Below are positions 3,297 to 31,297 of a DNA stretch of 37,663 bases, piece after piece. Positions within the stretch are counted from its first letter, which is position 1; each line of letters begins with the position of its first letter. The translations under genes and the position numbers were made by a program. The notes beneath the pieces were generated by a model. The model did not search any database. It was not told where the DNA came from and worked only from the letters and a program-made list of their open reading frames with translations. Source of the DNA: a virus. The stretch covers positions 1 to 37,663 of the IMG/VR virus record IMGVR_UViG_3300020470_000071, one strand, 5' to 3'.

Positions 3297-4382
3297 TCAA
3301 CCGACAGATGGTGCTAACAAAGCAACTTCTGTTGACTCAGCTGCTGCTAGGTCAAGTGGGAAGTTGTGAGCATTACGCTCGTGCATTACTTCCATACCAA
3401 GGTTTGCCCTATTAAGGATATCTCCCCATGTAGGTACCACCTTGCCATTAGCATCTACAACAGACTGGTTAAAGTTAAAACCATTCAAGTTGAAGGCCAT
3501 GGTGCATATGCCCATTGAGGTAAGCCATACACAGATAACAGGCCAAGAAGCAAGAAAGAAATGAAGACTACGAGAGTTGTTAAAGGAGGCGTATTGGAAG
3601 ATAAGACGTCCGAAGTAGCCATGGGCTGCGACGATGTTGTAAGTTTCTTCCTCTTGTCCGAATTTGTAGCCATAGTTCTGTGAATCAAGTCCTGTAGTTT
3701 CACGTATAAGTGAAGATGTAACCAGTGAGCCGTGCATAGCACTAAACAAAGCGCCGCCAAACATACCCGCCACACCTGCCATGTGGAATGGATGCATGAG
3801 GATATTATGTTCCGCCTGGAAGACAAACATAAAGTTGAACGTGCCTGAAATACCGAGAGGCATACCGTCACTGAATGATCCTTGTCCGAAAGGATAGACG
3901 AGGAATACAGCAAAAGCGGCTGAGACTGGTGCGGAGTAAGCAACACAGATCCAAGGACGCATTCCTAGTCGATAACTAAGTTCCCATTGGCGTCCCATGT
4001 AAGCTGAGATACCGATAAGGAAGTGGAAGATAACGAGTTGATAAGGTCCACCGTTGTAGAGCCATTCGTCAACTGTTGCTGCTTCCCAGATTGGGTAGAA
4101 ATGTAGTCCGATTGCGTTTGAGCTGGGAACAACAGCTCCTGAGATGATGTTGTTTCCATATAAAAAAGAACCTGCTACGGGTTCACGTATACCGTCGATA
4201 TCAACGGGTGGGGCTGCAATAAATGCAACGATAAAACAAGCTGCTGCTGTGAGTAGACAAGGAATCATAAGGACTCCGAACCAACCAACGTAAATACGAT
4301 TGTTAGTTGATGTAACCCATTCACATAACTCGTCCCATCCTTGCAAGTAACTACCACCCCTCTTTAAAGAAGATGATGTCAT
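3297..4382 (-). CDS. psbA: photosystem II D1 protein
   Basis: 361 residues, full length for D1. It replaces the photodamaged D1 subunit of the host photosystem II so that electron flow continues during infection. Conserved D1 signatures are present: [15 protein letters not shown], the [18 protein letters not shown] helix, [32 protein letters not shown], and the manganese-ligand and processing end [14 protein letters not shown] followed by a 15-residue tail. The residue after the GR of YMGRQWELS is Gln where plant D1 has Glu130. The gene lies on the strand opposite its neighbours, with its own terminator (3190-3220) and a structured leader. It is visibly more GC-rich than the flanking genes. 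Cyanophage psbA is well established, and there is no sign of an intron or frameshift. Confidence 0.98.
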
Positions 4383-4763: not shown

Positions 4764-4925
4764 TTAAACAGATAACTCAGTATCTTCAGAAGTCTTATTC
4801 TTTGCTTCGTAATGATAGGACTTACCACGATATTTAAAACCTGAGACCCTATCTAGTGTTTGCTGGTGTGCTTTTTTTATTTTTGAAGGCTCGTAAGCTC
4901 TTCCACGATATACAAGAGAGGTCAT
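4764..4925 (-). CDS. DUF4278 family protein
   Basis: 53 residues with two copies of the tyrosine-arginine motif typical of DUF4278: LVYRGRAYE near the start and FKYRGKSYHYE at residues 30-40, joined by a basic helix. DUF4278 is a small, largely cyanobacterial family of unknown function, so this is probably host-derived. It is a single-gene unit: its own terminator follows immediately (4732-4756), and AT-rich DNA precedes it. Start at the only in-frame ATG. Confidence 0.75.
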   Translation of the reverse strand: MTSLVYRGRAYEPSKIKKAHQQTLDRVSGFKYRGKSYHYEAKNKTSEDTELSV

Positions 4926-5180
4926 GTGCGTGTCCTATATGTTGACTTAACTTAAGTATATATTTTTTGTAGCGAATTATACAGTTTATGCTGATACATT
5001 AATTGTTAAGAAATTATTAAGATTTATAAGAGAGGGGGAAGCCCCACCGTTGTTTCTCGGCAAGGCTTTCTTTGTATAGGCATAGGAAACAATAAAAACT
5101 ATGCCGCCCTCTGGGTCTGACACTGTTCTTCTACGACCCAAAGATATAATAAACTTAATTACTTTTAAAAGTGTTTAGTT
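4926..5180. other. 255-base gene-free region
   Basis: No convincing gene on either strand. 4926-5030 is very AT-rich, with a weak + strand promoter-like pair TTGTTA (5003-5008), 16 bases, TATAAG (5025-5030). 5031-5140 is richer in GC and contains four stems, described separately. Confidence 0.6.
5031..5140 (+). ncRNA. candidate three-way-junction structured RNA
   Basis: Three helices close on each other. P1: AGAGGG (5031-5036) with CCCTCT (5107-5112). P2: GGAAGCC (5037-5043) with GGCTTTC (5064-5070), extended by CCG/CGG (5047-5049 with 5058-5060) across a three-by-three internal loop. P3: GGCATAG (5079-5085) with CTATGCC (5099-5105). Junction linkers are 0, 8 and 1 bases. A further hairpin GGGTC/GACCC (5113-5117 with 5135-5139) follows directly. 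P2 has a G-U pair (5038 with 5069) that would be a C-A mismatch on the minus strand, favouring + orientation. It could be a leader RNA for the gene at 5181 or a free small RNA. I do not recognise the motif. Confidence 0.5.
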
Positions 5181-5468
5181 TTGGTTAAACCGACCCCATC
5201 AACTAAATATTTAGACCCACGCAGAGAGCCTACTAAATGGCTAGGAGCGATACTAATAGACTTATTAGAACAAGATACAGAAGAGTCAAAAGAAGCCCTT
5301 AAGTGGGCGTTTCCACGTATGGCTCAGTGGCTAGAGCCTGGGATAATAGACCAGCTATTTGTTCCATGGATAGATCAGTACATGGAACTTTTGGCTGAAG
5401 ACGAAAACAATCAAAATAGCGAGACCCAGAAATCTCAGCCAAAGGATCAGAAGGAACTAAAGGAATAA
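5181..5468 (+). CDS. hypothetical protein (TTG start)
   Basis: 95 residues. The frame opens just upstream, and TTG at 5181 is the only start codon that keeps the conserved-looking N-terminus (TKYLDPRREPTKWLGAILID). The middle is helical and Trp-rich; the last 25 residues are a polar Gln/Lys/Glu tail. Its last 170 bases overlap a convincing reverse-strand gene, so the two are antisense partners. No family recognised. It follows the structured RNA candidate by about 40 bases. Confidence 0.55.
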   Translation: MVKPTPSTKYLDPRREPTKWLGAILIDLLEQDTEESKEALKWAFPRMAQWLEPGIIDQLFVPWIDQYMELLAEDENNQNSETQKSQPKDQKELKE

Positions 5469-5922
5469 TTTTAAAATCTTTCCAAACAGCATCATGAGGT
5501 AAAGGTGGTCGATACCAGTAATAACTTTTAGCCTCATAATCTACCAAGATATCTGAATGTCTACTAAACCATCGCCAAAACGCATGGAATTGTGCATCTG
5601 GTTTACCAGAAGTACAAGCAATTAAAAGTGCGTCTCCAGGTTCAATTGTCCATCTCAATTTGAAAAATTCTTCATAAGCTTTTTTAAGTATTTTTAATCC
5701 TGACTTACCTACAATTTTTCCCTGTAATGACCTAGCTCTCTTGTTCTTTTTACCTTTATACCAATCATTTAATTGCCGATTTGATTTACCAACTGCAAAT
5801 CCTGTATTCCATAAATAAAATCCTTTTTCATATTCCTTTTTCGGATCTATAAAAAGTTTACATATTTGACCGTTGATGCAAAATTTAGAGCTTGTAAACT
5901 TGCGGCGTACTCGATACGACAT
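5299..5922 (-). CDS. hypothetical protein
   Basis: 207 residues from the second Met (MSYRVRRKFTSS); an ATG at 5946 would add eight residues. The sequence reads as a real basic globular protein rich in Trp and Tyr (WRWFSRHSDILVDYEAKSYY, YRPPLPHDAVW). 5469-5870 has no competing gene on the other strand, so at least that part is genuine. The C-terminal 57 codons run antisense to the gene ending at 5468. The 5' end lies next to or across the start of the next + strand gene. No recognised family. Confidence 0.65.
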   Translation of the reverse strand: MSYRVRRKFTSSKFCINGQICKLFIDPKKEYEKGFYLWNTGFAVGKSNRQLNDWYKGKKNKRARSLQGKIVGKSGLKILKKAYEEFFKLRWTIEPGDALLIACTSGKPDAQFHAFWRWFSRHSDILVDYEAKSYYWYRPPLPHDAVWKDFKIIPLVPSDPLAEISGSRYFDCFRLQPKVPCTDLSMEQIAGLLSQALATEPYVETPT

Positions 5923-6208
5923 TGTGGAAGAATTATTAAAACTCATCCAAGCGGATCAACAACTATGGGAAATAGTTGAACAGCTCAAAGGACAAGATGA
6001 AGAGCCTATGGACTTCTTTTTTAATGTAGCAAATATGCTATCAATTGAATTTGAAGAACTAGAAAAAACTGATCTAGAAGACAAATTAGTAGCTTTATTT
6101 GGTGGCTTACCAGAACCTGCTTTTAAAATGGTTCCTCATCTAGTTCATGTTGCCTTAGATATGTATTTAATGCGTCGTATCCCAGACCATAAATCTATTA
6201 AAGGGTAA
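5876..6208 (+). CDS. hypothetical protein
   Basis: 110 residues from ATG 5876; GTG 5924 is an alternative that would give 94 residues and remove the overlap with the divergent reverse-strand gene. Helical and acidic, no domain recognised. It begins the + strand run leading into the DNA polymerase and is followed three bases later by the next gene. No good Shine-Dalgarno supports either start. Confidence 0.6.
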   Translation: MQNLELVNLRRTRYDIVEELLKLIQADQQLWEIVEQLKGQDEEPMDFFFNVANMLSIEFEELEKTDLEDKLVALFGGLPEPAFKMVPHLVHVALDMYLMRRIPDHKSIKG

Positions 6209-6211
6209 ACA

Positions 6212-6445
6212 ATGCAAATTGGATACGTCCTGTATGAACCTGATACTCTGAAAGTTCTTTGCCTAACTAAAGGTAAACGAGCAGTAGAGCTATTAGAAAT
6301 AAAAGATACAGAAAACTTAAATAGAGCACTATGTCTTAAAGATCTTACGTCAATCAAAGATCTTAATGAGAGATTTAAAAAGAATGACTTAACTCAAAAT
6401 CTTGATATAGTGAACATCGCAAAGCTTTATAAGCATTGTAAATGA
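6212..6445 (+). CDS. small hypothetical protein before polymerase
   Basis: 77 residues, alpha/beta composition (MQIGYVLYEPDTLKVLCLTK...). Its stop overlaps the polymerase start (ATGA at 6442-6445), implying translational coupling, so a replication-linked role is plausible. No family recognised. Confidence 0.65.
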   Translation: MQIGYVLYEPDTLKVLCLTKGKRAVELLEIKDTENLNRALCLKDLTSIKDLNERFKKNDLTQNLDIVNIAKLYKHCK

Positions 6446-8277
6446 AAAGATATGTATTTGACCTTGAGACTAATGGTCTTGTCCATGAGTTGGACAGGGT
6501 TCATTGCTTAGTGCTTAGAGATGCAGATACAAATGAAGTCTATAGTTGTGCAGATCAACCTGGCTATGACTCCATACACACTGGACTCACTTTGCTATCT
6601 CAGGCAGATATGCTGATCGGACATAATATTATCAACTTTGATTTCAGAGCACTTTTTAAACTTTTTCCAAACTTATCTAAGAAGAAAGATTGCATAATTT
6701 ATGACACATTAGTTGTTAGTAGAGTCTTATGGCCTGAGTTAGAACCAATTGATGAAAAAAACTTTTCTCACATAGATAAAAAATATGTTGGTCGCCATTC
6801 TTTAGGTGCGTGGGGTGAAAGATTAGGTGTTAAAAAATTAGATTTCCAAGAGAAACAAGAAGCCGAAACTCTATGGGATGAGTGGTCAGAAGAGATGCAA
6901 ACTTATTGTGAAGGAGATACTTTAGTTTCTTTAGAACTTTATAAATACTTTAAAACTCAAGAACTTGACCCTAGATGTTTTCAATTAGAACATAACTTTG
7001 CGATTATTATGTCATTACAAGAGGACTTTGGTTTCCCCTTTAATGAAAAAGGAGCCTATGCCCTTGTAAATACTTTAAAAACTAGAAGAACAGAAATCGA
7101 TGACGAACTACAGAAAAAATTCCCTCCAATCACAGAAGAACGTATCTCGGAGAAAACTGGAAAGAGACTCAAGGATAAAGTTACTGTATTCAACCCCGCC
7201 TCTCGTAAGCAGACCGCAGAAAGGTTACAAAAAATTTATCCCGAAATTAAATTTGAAGCGACGGAAAAAGGTAATGTCAAATTGGATGACGACGTCTTGG
7301 AAAAGCTGGGTAAAAAGTATAAGGAAGCTGATCTCCTAGCAGAGTATCAATTACTAAACAAAAGACTGGGTCAAATATCTGAAGGAAAAGAAGCTTGGCT
7401 AAAACATAGTCAAAAATATAAAGATGGAAGGATACATGGATCAGTCATAACCAACGCTTGTGTCAGCGGGAGATGTAGCCATCGTGGTCCGAACATGGCT
7501 CAAATTCCTAGCGTGGGTCATAAGTATGGAGCAGAATGTCGTGCATTATTTTATGCACCTTATGGTTGGGTTCAAGTTGGTGCTGACGCCAGTGGCTTGG
7601 AACTTAGAGCATTAGGAGCACAACTAGCTTACTTTGATGGCGGTGAATATGCGAAGTTAGTTAGTAATGATGGATTTGATATTCATACTCATAATGCACA
7701 ATTATTTGGCATCTTTGATGGTAAAGGTGAAATAAAAAAAGCAACCAGAGACCTTGCAAAAACACTTATCTATGCAGTCCTTTATGGTGGGGGTGCAAGA
7801 CGTGTAGGTTCAATTATGGATATCACTTTAAGTGAACATGAACAACAAGAAATAGGTAAGGAAACTATCAATACTTTTTATAAAAATCTACCTGCAATTA
7901 AAAAATTAAAAGATAAAGTCGATGAAAAAGTAGTCAATAGAGGTTACTTAAAAGGAATAGATGGTAGACATCTACAGATCAGGTCGAGACATTCCGCATT
8001 AAATCAACTACTTCAATCAACAGGAGCAATTGCGGTTAAGAAAGCTACCTGCATTCTTTACAGTGATCTCTACAAGGCAGGAATGAAATGGGGGTGCCAT
8101 TATGGATTTGTAGCTCATGTCCATGATGAGATACAAGCCATCGTAAAGCCTCAATTCACCAGTATCTACAAAGACCTCGCAATTAACTCTTTTAAAAAGG
8201 CTGGAGAATTTTACAATCTAAAATGTCCTTTGACTGGAGAGGCAAAAGAAGGTAAAAACTGGATGGAGACTCATTAA
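6442..8277 (+). CDS. family A DNA polymerase (T7-like)
   Basis: 611 residues; replicates the phage genome. An N-terminal 3'-5' proofreading exonuclease is intact: Exo I FDLETNGL (Asp7, Glu9), Exo II GHNIINFD (Asp67) and Exo III YCEGD (Tyr155, Asp159). The polymerase domain has motif A GADASGLELR (Asp382), motif B RDLAKTLIYAVLYGGG (Arg436, Lys440, Tyr444) and motif C HVHDEIQ (Asp562, Glu563). Tyr444 occupies the position of E. coli Phe762, the T7-type state. There is no 5'-3' exonuclease domain, as in T7 gp5. Length and spacing fit podovirus-like polymerases. It overlaps the upstream gene by four bases and abuts the next gene (TAAATG), so it sits inside an operon. Confidence 0.97.
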   Translation: MKRYVFDLETNGLVHELDRVHCLVLRDADTNEVYSCADQPGYDSIHTGLTLLSQADMLIGHNIINFDFRALFKLFPNLSKKKDCIIYDTLVVSRVLWPELEPIDEKNFSHIDKKYVGRHSLGAWGERLGVKKLDFQEKQEAETLWDEWSEEMQTYCEGDTLVSLELYKYFKTQELDPRCFQLEHNFAIIMSLQEDFGFPFNEKGAYALVNTLKTRRTEIDDELQKKFPPITEERISEKTGKRLKDKVTVFNPASRKQTAERLQKIYPEIKFEATEKGNVKLDDDVLEKLGKKYKEADLLAEYQLLNKRLGQISEGKEAWLKHSQKYKDGRIHGSVITNACVSGRCSHRGPNMAQIPSVGHKYGAECRALFYAPYGWVQVGADASGLELRALGAQLAYFDGGEYAKLVSNDGFDIHTHNAQLFGIFDGKGEIKKATRDLAKTLIYAVLYGGGARRVGSIMDITLSEHEQQEIGKETINTFYKNLPAIKKLKDKVDEKVVNRGYLKGIDGRHLQIRSRHSALNQLLQSTGAIAVKKATCILYSDLYKAGMKWGCHYGFVAHVHDEIQAIVKPQFTSIYKDLAINSFKKAGEFYNLKCPLTGEAKEGKNWMETH

Positions 8278-29469: not shown

Positions 29470-30115
29470 TTCTGGTTTCTATAACTTAGGAACCGTTGAA
29501 TCATATCCAACAGGAGGTTCAGGACCAACAGCTTATGGTCCTACCTCCTATTTTGGTTCTGATCCACTACCAGAAACATCTGGAGATAGTATTTATAATC
29601 CAATCGATCTTGGAATATTATCTGATATTTTTAAAACAATTACAATTAGTAACTCTCATGGAGGTCTATCCCGTAGACAAACAACTTTCTATAGTTTTGA
29701 ATTAACGAAACGGAGATCAGTACAATTTACACAGAATTACAGTCAATTCTCTTATGAAAAGAATACAAATAAAAACACACTTTTAGCTTTTTATGAAATT
29801 TTTGAAAAAACTAGAAGAGAAGAGTTACCTATAAATGATCTTGGATATGTAGCAAAAGAATCAGGAATAGACTATTTAGATGCAGAAGGTGAACTACCAA
29901 ATATTGATTATCCAAACCTTGCACTAGAACCTGGAAAATATTTATTTTTAATTACAAATGATATTCGTTATTTAGAAACTACTTATTCAATTGATTTAAA
30001 TGTAAATAGCCTTGATTGGAGGTTTGTAAAAGAGGCTATCGATGAAACCGTTGACTTTAGTAAAGTAACTGAAGGCGTTTCAGGAAGTATAGATTTTGGT
30101 ACTATAGCTAGTTAA
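29438..30115 (+). CDS. beta-sandwich virion-like protein
   Basis: 225 residues. After a Gly/Ser/Pro-rich N-terminus, residues 75-205 have strands resembling a pre-peptidase C-terminal (PPC) type sandwich (TTFYSFELTKRRSVQFTQ, and ALEPGKYLFLITND). A GAGGAG lies right before the ATG. Probably a virion or secreted structural protein; the family call is tentative. Confidence 0.6.
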   Translation: MSRFLTTIPSNSGFYNLGTVESYPTGGSGPTAYGPTSYFGSDPLPETSGDSIYNPIDLGILSDIFKTITISNSHGGLSRRQTTFYSFELTKRRSVQFTQNYSQFSYEKNTNKNTLLAFYEIFEKTRREELPINDLGYVAKESGIDYLDAEGELPNIDYPNLALEPGKYLFLITNDIRYLETTYSIDLNVNSLDWRFVKEAIDETVDFSKVTEGVSGSIDFGTIAS

Positions 30116-30145
30116 TAAGGTTATAAATATTGGTTAATAAGGTTC

Positions 30146-31297
30146 TTAACGCTTACTTCCACGGCCTTGTCTACCTTGACCACTAGTTCCTCTACTAGAA
30201 TTTGAAGATGGTCCTGAACCAGAAGAAGAAGAAGAGGAGGAGGAACGACCTCCACTACCTCCTTTTCTACCACCTCCCCATTTTCTCTTCATACTCTTAT
30301 CTCCAAAGGCTTTAAGAAAGTCATTTCCTGTTGCTGTTCTTGACAAATACATAGCCTGTTCCAGTGTGGTACCTTCATCAATTGATCTTTGGAATAGTTT
30401 TGTATATTTGTCATATTCTGGCCCAATACCAAAGCTCCCTGGAGCAAAACCTCTTTTTTTGTCCCAATTAGGATCATCGGTTAATCCTGGGTTAGGAGGT
30501 GCTTCAGGAGTTTTAGTACTTCCTGTAGATGTCGTTGCACTCTTGTTACCATAACCTTCCATTAACCATTTACCTCCTGGACCTACTCTTGCATCTAACC
30601 AATCTTCAGCTGGATTAGTGCCATGCTTGGCTTTATAATCGGTAACAAGTTTTAGACGATTTTTATATTCATCACTCAGCATGATATTAGATCTAACTTC
30701 ATCTTTAGTTGCTCCCCTATTTAAATCCCCAGTCCAATAATTTAAACCTTCAAATCCAGCGTCTCTTCCTAGTAACTCCCTGTATTGTTGATTAATCCAA
30801 GCATCATGATTTCCACTAGGAGCAGTATCAGTTCTTGATTCAGGATAACGAATACTTGGTCCATAACCAAAATCTCCTTTTATTTCTGAAATTTGAGGAG
30901 CAGTAGATAATAAGTTTCTTCTTGCAGTAGCTTCTTCTAATACTTTTCGATAGCTATCAGCAGCATCATAAGCAGCCTCTCTAGCTCCTGAATAACGTCT
31001 CCCACCTGGTAAAGTTTCTCCATATGTCTCAGCTGCTTGTCTTCTAGCAGCAAGATTTGAAGGATTAATACCATATGTAAAACTACTTGGACGATTACCT
31101 CTTATTGCATTTATTTCATTAATAGCTCTATTTGCAACATCACGAGCTACTCCATATTGCTCTCTAGGAGTAACTTTTTGAAAAACACTAGCCTTTTTAT
31201 CTTTAGGCGTTAAAATTGTATAATCACCAACTCTGGTCGAGTCATAATTAGGTACTTCATTATTTTTTGGTTCAGAATTATTTTTCGTTTCGGACAT
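30146..31297 (-). CDS. DUF4214-containing virion-like protein
   Basis: 383 residues. The N-terminal 160 are charged and helical (EQYGVARDVANRAINEINAI). Then one DUF4214 module (about 171-215: ELLGRDAGFEGLNYWTGDL). A linker with LDARVGPGGKWL resembles LDAWIGPGGAL in the gene at 1-1170. The C-terminus is a low-complexity Ser/Gly/Arg stretch. Shared modules with 1-1170 suggest the two are components of one structure. It lies alone on the reverse strand between + strand genes. Confidence 0.75.
   Translation of the reverse strand: MSETKNNSEPKNNEVPNYDSTRVGDYTILTPKDKKASVFQKVTPREQYGVARDVANRAINEINAIRGNRPSSFTYGINPSNLAARRQAAETYGETLPGGRRYSGAREAAYDAADSYRKVLEEATARRNLLSTAPQISEIKGDFGYGPSIRYPESRTDTAPSGNHDAWINQQYRELLGRDAGFEGLNYWTGDLNRGATKDEVRSNIMLSDEYKNRLKLVTDYKAKHGTNPAEDWLDARVGPGGKWLMEGYGNKSATTSTGSTKTPEAPPNPGLTDDPNWDKKRGFAPGSFGIGPEYDKYTKLFQRSIDEGTTLEQAMYLSRTATGNDFLKAFGDKSMKRKWGGGRKGGSGGRSSSSSSSSGSGPSSNSSRGTSGQGRQGRGSKR

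Follow-up and report, generated by a model that had tools for sequence, protein, structure and literature searches.

Marine cyanophages carry several described non-coding elements, including PhotoRC-II, wcaG, manA and CfrI, some of which lie near psbA (PMC2864571, PMC9602691), and CfrI has been characterized as an antisense RNA to the 3' end of psbA (PMC9602691). GOLLD and ROOL are likewise phage-encoded, structured and stabilized by kissing loops, and their function is unknown (PMC12286853), but they extend over hundreds of nucleotides. Compact junction RNAs also occur in cyanobacteria and marine samples, namely the glutamine riboswitch (glnA) and the Downstream-peptide RNA. CyVA-1 (RF02965) is a stand-alone, intergenic cyanobacterial RNA, which shares a U-rich type of kissing loop with the RNA described below. 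In halite cyanobacteria it was detected as a transcript of low abundance (PMC7002113), which means that at least these organisms express the family.

The RNA considered here is located in the 37.7-kb record of an uncultured virus, which was analysed over its whole length of 37,663 nucleotides and is called the window below. In addition to the genes listed in Table 1, the window encodes an exonuclease, a primase, a tail-fibre protein and an endolysin, and the record starts with tandem GATACA repeats (positions 1 to 42). The fold had not been recognised in the original prediction. No Rfam family reaches its threshold anywhere in the window; the window also contains no tRNA. PhotoRC-II, wcaG and manA match neither at threshold in the window nor among the relaxed listings near the RNA, and GOLLD and ROOL have no Rfam match here. 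Matches to glnA and to the Downstream-peptide RNA are also absent, and the phage RNA differs from both by its stand-alone context and by its location on the strand opposite to the one originally proposed. Apart from CyVA-1, weak Rfam listings were not repeated at the RNA in its homologues.

The RNA comprises approx. 112 nucleotides on the minus strand, with its 5' end at approx. position 5140 and the 3' end of P1 at position 5031. In transcript order, the P4 hairpin is followed by the 5' strand of P1, the P3 hairpin, a linker of about 8 to 10 nucleotides, the P2 hairpin and the closing strand of P1. The P4 loop contains a conserved AGAAGA.C and a conserved CA, and the P3 loop a conserved UUUUUA. 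Both loops are predicted to pair with each other via the 6 bp kissing helix K4:K3, in which the window carries one G.U pair.

Table 1. Positions of the phage RNA, its elements and neighbouring features in the window
Feature	Position	Strand	Basis or remark
Whole conserved RNA	5029..5140	minus	match of the covariance model R1 in the window (model built from the window) and covariation in homologues
P4 hairpin, GGGTC/GACCC (5113-5117/5135-5139), 17-nt loop GUAGAAGAACAGUGUCA	5113..5139	minus	proposed counterpart of CyVA-1 hairpin B
K4 kissing strand AACAGU in P4 loop	5122..5127	minus	98.4% of cells pair with K3
K3 kissing strand AUUGUU in P3 loop	5088..5093	minus	pairs with K4
P1, 3' strand	5031..5036	minus	pairs with 5107-5112
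P1, 5' strand	5107..5112	minus	pairs with 5031-5036
P3 hairpin, GGCAUAG/CUAUGCC (5079-5085/5099-5105), 13-nt loop UUUUUAUUGUUUC	5079..5105	minus	covariation
P2 hairpin, approx. 11 bp with U.G wobbles (5039-5049 with 5058-5068), window loop AGAAACAA	5039..5068	minus	covariation, minus-strand folds
-10-like hexamer TATTAT	5146..5151	minus	5 nt upstream of the RNA 5' end; TANNAT in relatives
Tandem CTTAATAA-TTT-CTTAACAA, 11-bp period	5003..5021	minus	directly behind the RNA, in the region ahead of the following minus-strand gene
DUF4278-like 53-aa protein, next minus-strand gene	4764..4925	minus	Pfam DUF4278, E 8.8e-5, just under the cut-off
psbA	3297-4382	minus	window gene
T7-type DNA polymerase	6442-8277	plus	window gene

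Homologues were collected by a protein search with the gene at position 5181, by three DNA patterns and by a DNA polymerase search, and false pattern matches were dropped by eye at L007, L011, L013, L014, L019, L025, L027-L030, L032-L038 and L040-L046. The RNA was found in 25 further IMG/VR contigs, and 21 distinct sequences are available when the window is included. All 15 relatives of the DNA polymerase with at least 65% identity and a flank reaching the site (L047, L048, L050-L061 and L064) carry it 1.3 to 1.6 kb upstream of the polymerase, and the core RNA motifs have no match in three polymerase loci at 37% identity. Close copies are absent from the annotated phage genomes of the searched collection, and cellular genomes contain no match to the phage form when searched with a strict pattern written in the plus orientation of the phage RNA.

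A covariance model, R1, was built from the window RNA and used to re-align 24 members, of which 21 are distinct. In this alignment, which is fitted to the structure and hence somewhat favourable, although the counts for P3 and the kissing helix were already visible before fitting, 93.7% of the cells of the 31 tested pairs in P1, P2, P3 and the kissing helix are standard pairs, compared with 77.1% in shuffles and at most 51.4% with slid partners. The number of double-change cells is 122 versus 35.6 in shuffles (0/500 as high), both sides have changed in 25 of the 31 pairs, and the covariation score reaches 0.598 versus 0.252 in shuffles and at most 0.19 with slid partners. Double changes affect 8/8 pairs of P3, which is 8 bp long in most relatives and paired in 99.4% of cells, and 11/11 pairs of P2 (94.8% paired). 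In the kissing helix, 3/6 pairs are double-changed, and the variants include AACAGU/ACUGUU, AACAAU/AUUGUU, AACGAU/AUCGUU and AGCGAU/AUCGCU. P1 is the weakest helix, with 79% of cells paired and 3/6 pairs double-changed, and its border towards P2 shifts from member to member. P4 was excluded from the 31 pairs due to its poorly aligned 3' strand, and 63 of its 65 cells pair in a hand-made table. The earlier suggestion that this is a new cyanophage RNA built around a three-way junction is thus strongly supported: compensatory changes affect all helices tested in the 21 distinct homologues, and the covariation check proposed together with the suggestion is passed. Protein coding as the origin of the conservation is hard to reconcile with double changes in all of these helices, and the ORFs overlapping the RNA (51 amino acids on the minus strand, 25 on the plus strand) are short; the coding reading appears disfavoured on these grounds.

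The 110-nt stretch folds well on both strands. The plus strand folds with -38.9 kcal/mol (z -3.8, 0/200 dinucleotide shuffles as good) and the minus strand with -39.9 kcal/mol (z -3.2), which also beats all 200 shuffles. The homologues, by comparison, separate the two strands: 18 of 19 members reach a lower folding energy as minus strand, with a mean gain of 6.6 kcal/mol (Wilcoxon p ~1e-5 for members that are not independent by descent), and the same fold recurs on this strand in nearly all members. In plus orientation, the alignment contains A.C or C.A cells in P3 and P4 and no G.U cells. A.C mismatches of the plus strand correspond to G.U pairs of the minus strand, and the hand-segmented alignment, read as minus strand, shows 15 G.U and 0 A.C cells over P3, P4 and the kissing helix; the P1 and P2 counts of this table were kept out of the strand claim because the borders of both helices were mis-set in some members. 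The comparison therefore points to the minus strand, and not the plus strand, as the RNA. The plus orientation had been derived from a single G-U pair in P2, and this is outweighed by the homologues. P1, P2, P3 and the hairpin that follows them were correctly seen in the sequence, and their fold beats shuffles, but they were placed on the wrong strand and the kissing contact was missed. The letters of P2 as 7 bp with a 3 bp extension are also present, but on the minus strand the internal loop between them closes, giving one continuous helix of approx. 11 bp with U.G wobbles, and what appeared as a fourth hairpin behind the junction does exist but is P4, i.e. the first element of the RNA.

The strand also bears on the idea of a riboswitch-like leader on the plus strand, 40 nucleotides ahead of the ORF at 5181. 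Such an arrangement would match this spacing and the good folding of the plus strand, but it is contradicted by the mismatches it would create in P3, P4 and the kissing helix and by the better minus-strand energies. The region is gene-free as described, but the RNA adjoins the divergent 5181 gene rather than preceding it, and it is read away from this gene on the opposite strand. The same flank carries the divergent plus-strand gene in the window and in L001-L003, whereas minus-strand genes replace it in several relatives (L047, L048, L050 and L058-L061). A plus-strand leader is thus hardly tenable. Nearly all relatives keep a minus-strand gene for a phrog_38455 protein (5299-5946 in the window) between the RNA and the operon of the polymerase; the window copy overlaps the plus-strand gene at 5181-5468 at the 3' end of the latter.

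The conserved site could alternatively be a DNA element, such as a single-stranded fold for replication start or packaging or a transcription factor site, with an incidental RNA-like pattern. Its fixed position beside replication genes in all close relatives would be in line with this; however, strand-specific G.U wobbles are not favoured by a DNA fold on one strand, and a family of chromosomal RNAs, located at scattered sites in cyanobacteria, has the same kissing loops, as described below. We consider a DNA element very improbable.

On the minus strand, a TANNAT hexamer is present at -17 to -5 upstream of P4 in 18 of 21 members but only in 1 of 84 control windows. This box is an independent indication of the minus strand, and its placement suggests that transcription starts at about the first base of P4 and that the RNA apparently has its own promoter. 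On its 3' side, a DUF4278-like ORF follows after approx. 84 to 109 nucleotides in 14 of the 20 members examined; the encoded 53-aa protein of the window contains two YRG..Y motifs. The tandem repeat between the RNA and this gene is probably not part of the RNA. Its consensus CTTAAYAW-TTT-CTTAACAW and an accompanying TATA(A/G)T-like box are conserved across 13 aligned relatives, and CTTAACA repeated with an 11-bp period resembles a cyanobacterial Pho box; by this resemblance, the tandem and the TATA(A/G)T-like box ahead of the DUF4278-like gene look like a Pho-regulated phage promoter.

This gene order raises the question of whether the RNA is a 5' leader in cis of the DUF4278-like mRNA, perhaps including psbA, which would switch in response to, e.g., a ligand or the phosphate status. 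The frequent downstream ORF, the -10 box ahead of the RNA and the compact junction with kissing loops, a common riboswitch plan, are compatible with a leader. The same-strand downstream gene nevertheless has its own conserved promoter-like region between the RNA and the ORF. In addition, the DUF4278-like gene is missing beside the RNA in L003, which has another gene on this side, and in L010, L017 and L057, where plus-strand genes follow, while in L056 an insert of approx. 170 nucleotides separates the RNA from the unit of box and DUF4278-like gene. The cyanobacterial relatives are also found beside many different genes. Because the DUF4278-like gene has a promoter-like region and is absent beside the RNA in these four loci, a minus-strand leader role, although possible, is less likely, and overall we regard it as improbable. 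The variety of neighbouring genes around both the phage and the cyanobacterial copies rather favours a separate, stand-alone transcription unit that acts in trans over a riboswitch leader, with independence from the neighbours deduced from this variety.

The relation to CyVA-1 was assessed at relaxed thresholds, and none of the phage RNAs exceeds the Rfam cut-off (best score 26.1 versus 41.4 bits). On the minus strand, the CyVA-1 model matches the P4 hairpin with 17.7 bits in the window (5146-5110), 26.1 bits in L009 (E 5e-4 in 201 nt) and 24.5 bits in L010, and the P3/P1 region of L017 with 20.9 bits. In the window, the P4 loop, (A)AGAAGARCRRUGUCA, falls on model positions 33-69, and the same hairpin is matched in L009; P4 corresponds to hairpin B of CyVA-1 with its loop GAAGGAGARCGACGUCA. 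Hairpin A (loop GUUUUACCGUU) and the enclosing P1 are absent 5' of P4 in the flanks that were read, and the phage -10 box stands directly 5' of P4. In the reverse direction, CyVA-1 was detected in 44 of 242 cyanobacterial genomes (37 above the cut-off) and R1 in 23 of 242; 16 of these R1 genomes belong to the 44 CyVA-1 genomes, compared with about 4 expected. In the cases compared, the R1 matches overlap CyVA-1 or sit just 3' of it, as in G128 (R1 at 30016-30143, CyVA-1 at 29978-30054 and 30075-30168). The best R1 score in cyanobacteria is 31.7 bits and many single E-values are weak; it is the agreement of both search directions, and not the single E-values, that provides evidence for a relation. 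Pattern searches retrieved no full CyVA-1 form from viral contigs. Taken together, the comparison indicates that the phage RNA is a trimmed relative of the CyVA-1 kind, outside the family as Rfam defines it. A weak R1 match with a UUUUUACCGUUUC loop (L112, G047:C35:22015-22118), located in a genome without CyVA-1 match, is possibly a further variant. Another R1 match (L105 in G101) looks protein-coding, fits poorly and was judged to be a chance hit.

The Rfam model of CyVA-1 covers 77 nucleotides, which represent only a first domain (D1), whereas the phage RNA corresponds to hairpin B of D1 plus a second domain (D2) outside the model. In Fischerella, a Leptolyngbyaceae MAG, Westiellopsis and cyanobacterium PCC 7702, genuine CyVA-1 loci continue on their 3' side with another three-way junction, which is arranged as in the phage RNA. 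In the Fischerella locus L067 (approx. 1704-1910), D2 consists of P1 (CUAGAUA/UAUCUAG) enclosing P3 (GUGGAG-UUUUUGUCGCUUC-CUCCAC) and then P2. A D2 P3 hairpin with the phage-type, U-rich 13-nt loop is present within 290 nucleotides downstream of CyVA-1 in 30 of 31 loci, compared with 0 of 31 upstream controls, and all phage members contain the junction.

The loops of both domains are complementary in a specific combination. Pairing of the hairpin-B loop with the D2 P3 loop is possible at 218 of 222 positions in 37 loci, versus 197 after permutation (0/10,000 as high), and it is maintained by different pair types (AGCGAC/GUCGCU, AGCGAU/AUCGCU, AGCGGC/GCCGCU, AACGGU/ACCGUU and GGCGAC/GUCGCC). 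The K4:K3 contact is thus kept with different bases in cyanobacteria. A second contact, KA:KB, between the hairpin-A loop and the D2 P2 loop (after CAG) is paired throughout, with 126 of 126 positions over 21 loci, versus 119 after permutation (0/10,000 as high). In permutations of the cyanobacterial loci, the two D1 loops give no pairing signal with each other and the other cross-combination gives only a weak one (76/10,000). As the loops were picked by pattern and the loci are related, the argument relies on the comparison with permuted loops and on how varied the pair types are, and not on the raw counts. These comparisons suggest that full CyVA-1 is built from two homologous three-way junctions that are docked crosswise by two kissing loops, and that it is about twice as long as its database entry, of which Rfam models only the first domain (L067, L072-L102). 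The extended RNA and the phage RNA share the D2 junction, the 13-nt P3 loop and the geometry of K4:K3, but D1 P1, hairpin A and KA:KB are found only in the former. The cyanobacterial copies have one recurrent upstream neighbour, which is found in 10 loci (cluster c1; L073-L102, upstream side) and encodes a protein of 230 to 250 amino acids that appears hydrophobic by eye.

Covariation is blind to whether a contact is formed within one molecule or between molecules, and phage RNAs that assemble via kissing loops are known (PMC12286853). K4:K3 could thus connect dimers or larger rings, comparable to phi29 pRNA or the GOLLD and ROOL cages, which would be compatible with a trans-acting RNA. However, the two non-interchangeable loop pairs of cyanobacteria join the halves of a single transcript and hence indicate contacts within one molecule, so that assembly between molecules appears rather doubtful.

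With a probability of about two in three, we favour the interpretation that the window encodes a stand-alone cyanophage non-coding RNA on the minus strand, with a P4-docked junction, that represents a reduced form of CyVA-1 and probably acts in trans. A sigma-70-type promoter of its own would drive transcription from P4 onwards, and the product would comprise the 5' hairpin P4 and the three-way junction P1/P3/P2, the kissing helix holding the loops of P4 and P3 together. The strand, the fold, the kissing contact and the kinship with CyVA-1 are shown by the sequences, and the promoter and the independence from neighbouring genes are deduced from them. The phage form would have retained hairpin B of D1, the whole D2 and one of the two kissing contacts. 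In the most likely scenario, it is a stable folded RNA that during infection would offer its conserved loop bases, AGAAGA.C in P4 and UUUUUA in P3, to some protein or complex. The presumed hosts are the small-genome family around G101 (1.3-3 Mb among the sizes listed), presumably marine picocyanobacteria, and CyVA-1 exceeds its cut-off in none of 151 genomes of this family. Replacement or mimicry of a host's own copy is therefore not supported, and action on a conserved partner would be the more likely mode.

Judged from these comparisons, the phage RNA is real and new, and the wider gain is a corrected anatomy of CyVA-1, which has so far been a catalogue entry without known function. We are reasonably confident that the CyVA-1 of the database is half of a two-junction, two-lock RNA, of which marine cyanophages carry a stripped-down, independently transcribed one-lock copy. 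The phage RNA would then expose that the database model misses half of CyVA-1, and it would reveal which parts are kept when the RNA is pared down, namely hairpin B, the second domain and one kissing contact. The two loop-loop contacts make the fold directly testable by compensatory mutants and structure determination. If this interpretation is correct, the phage employs a minimal version of an RNA device taken from the cellular repertoire, and its carriage by phages suggests that this RNA touches something that is worth controlling during infection.
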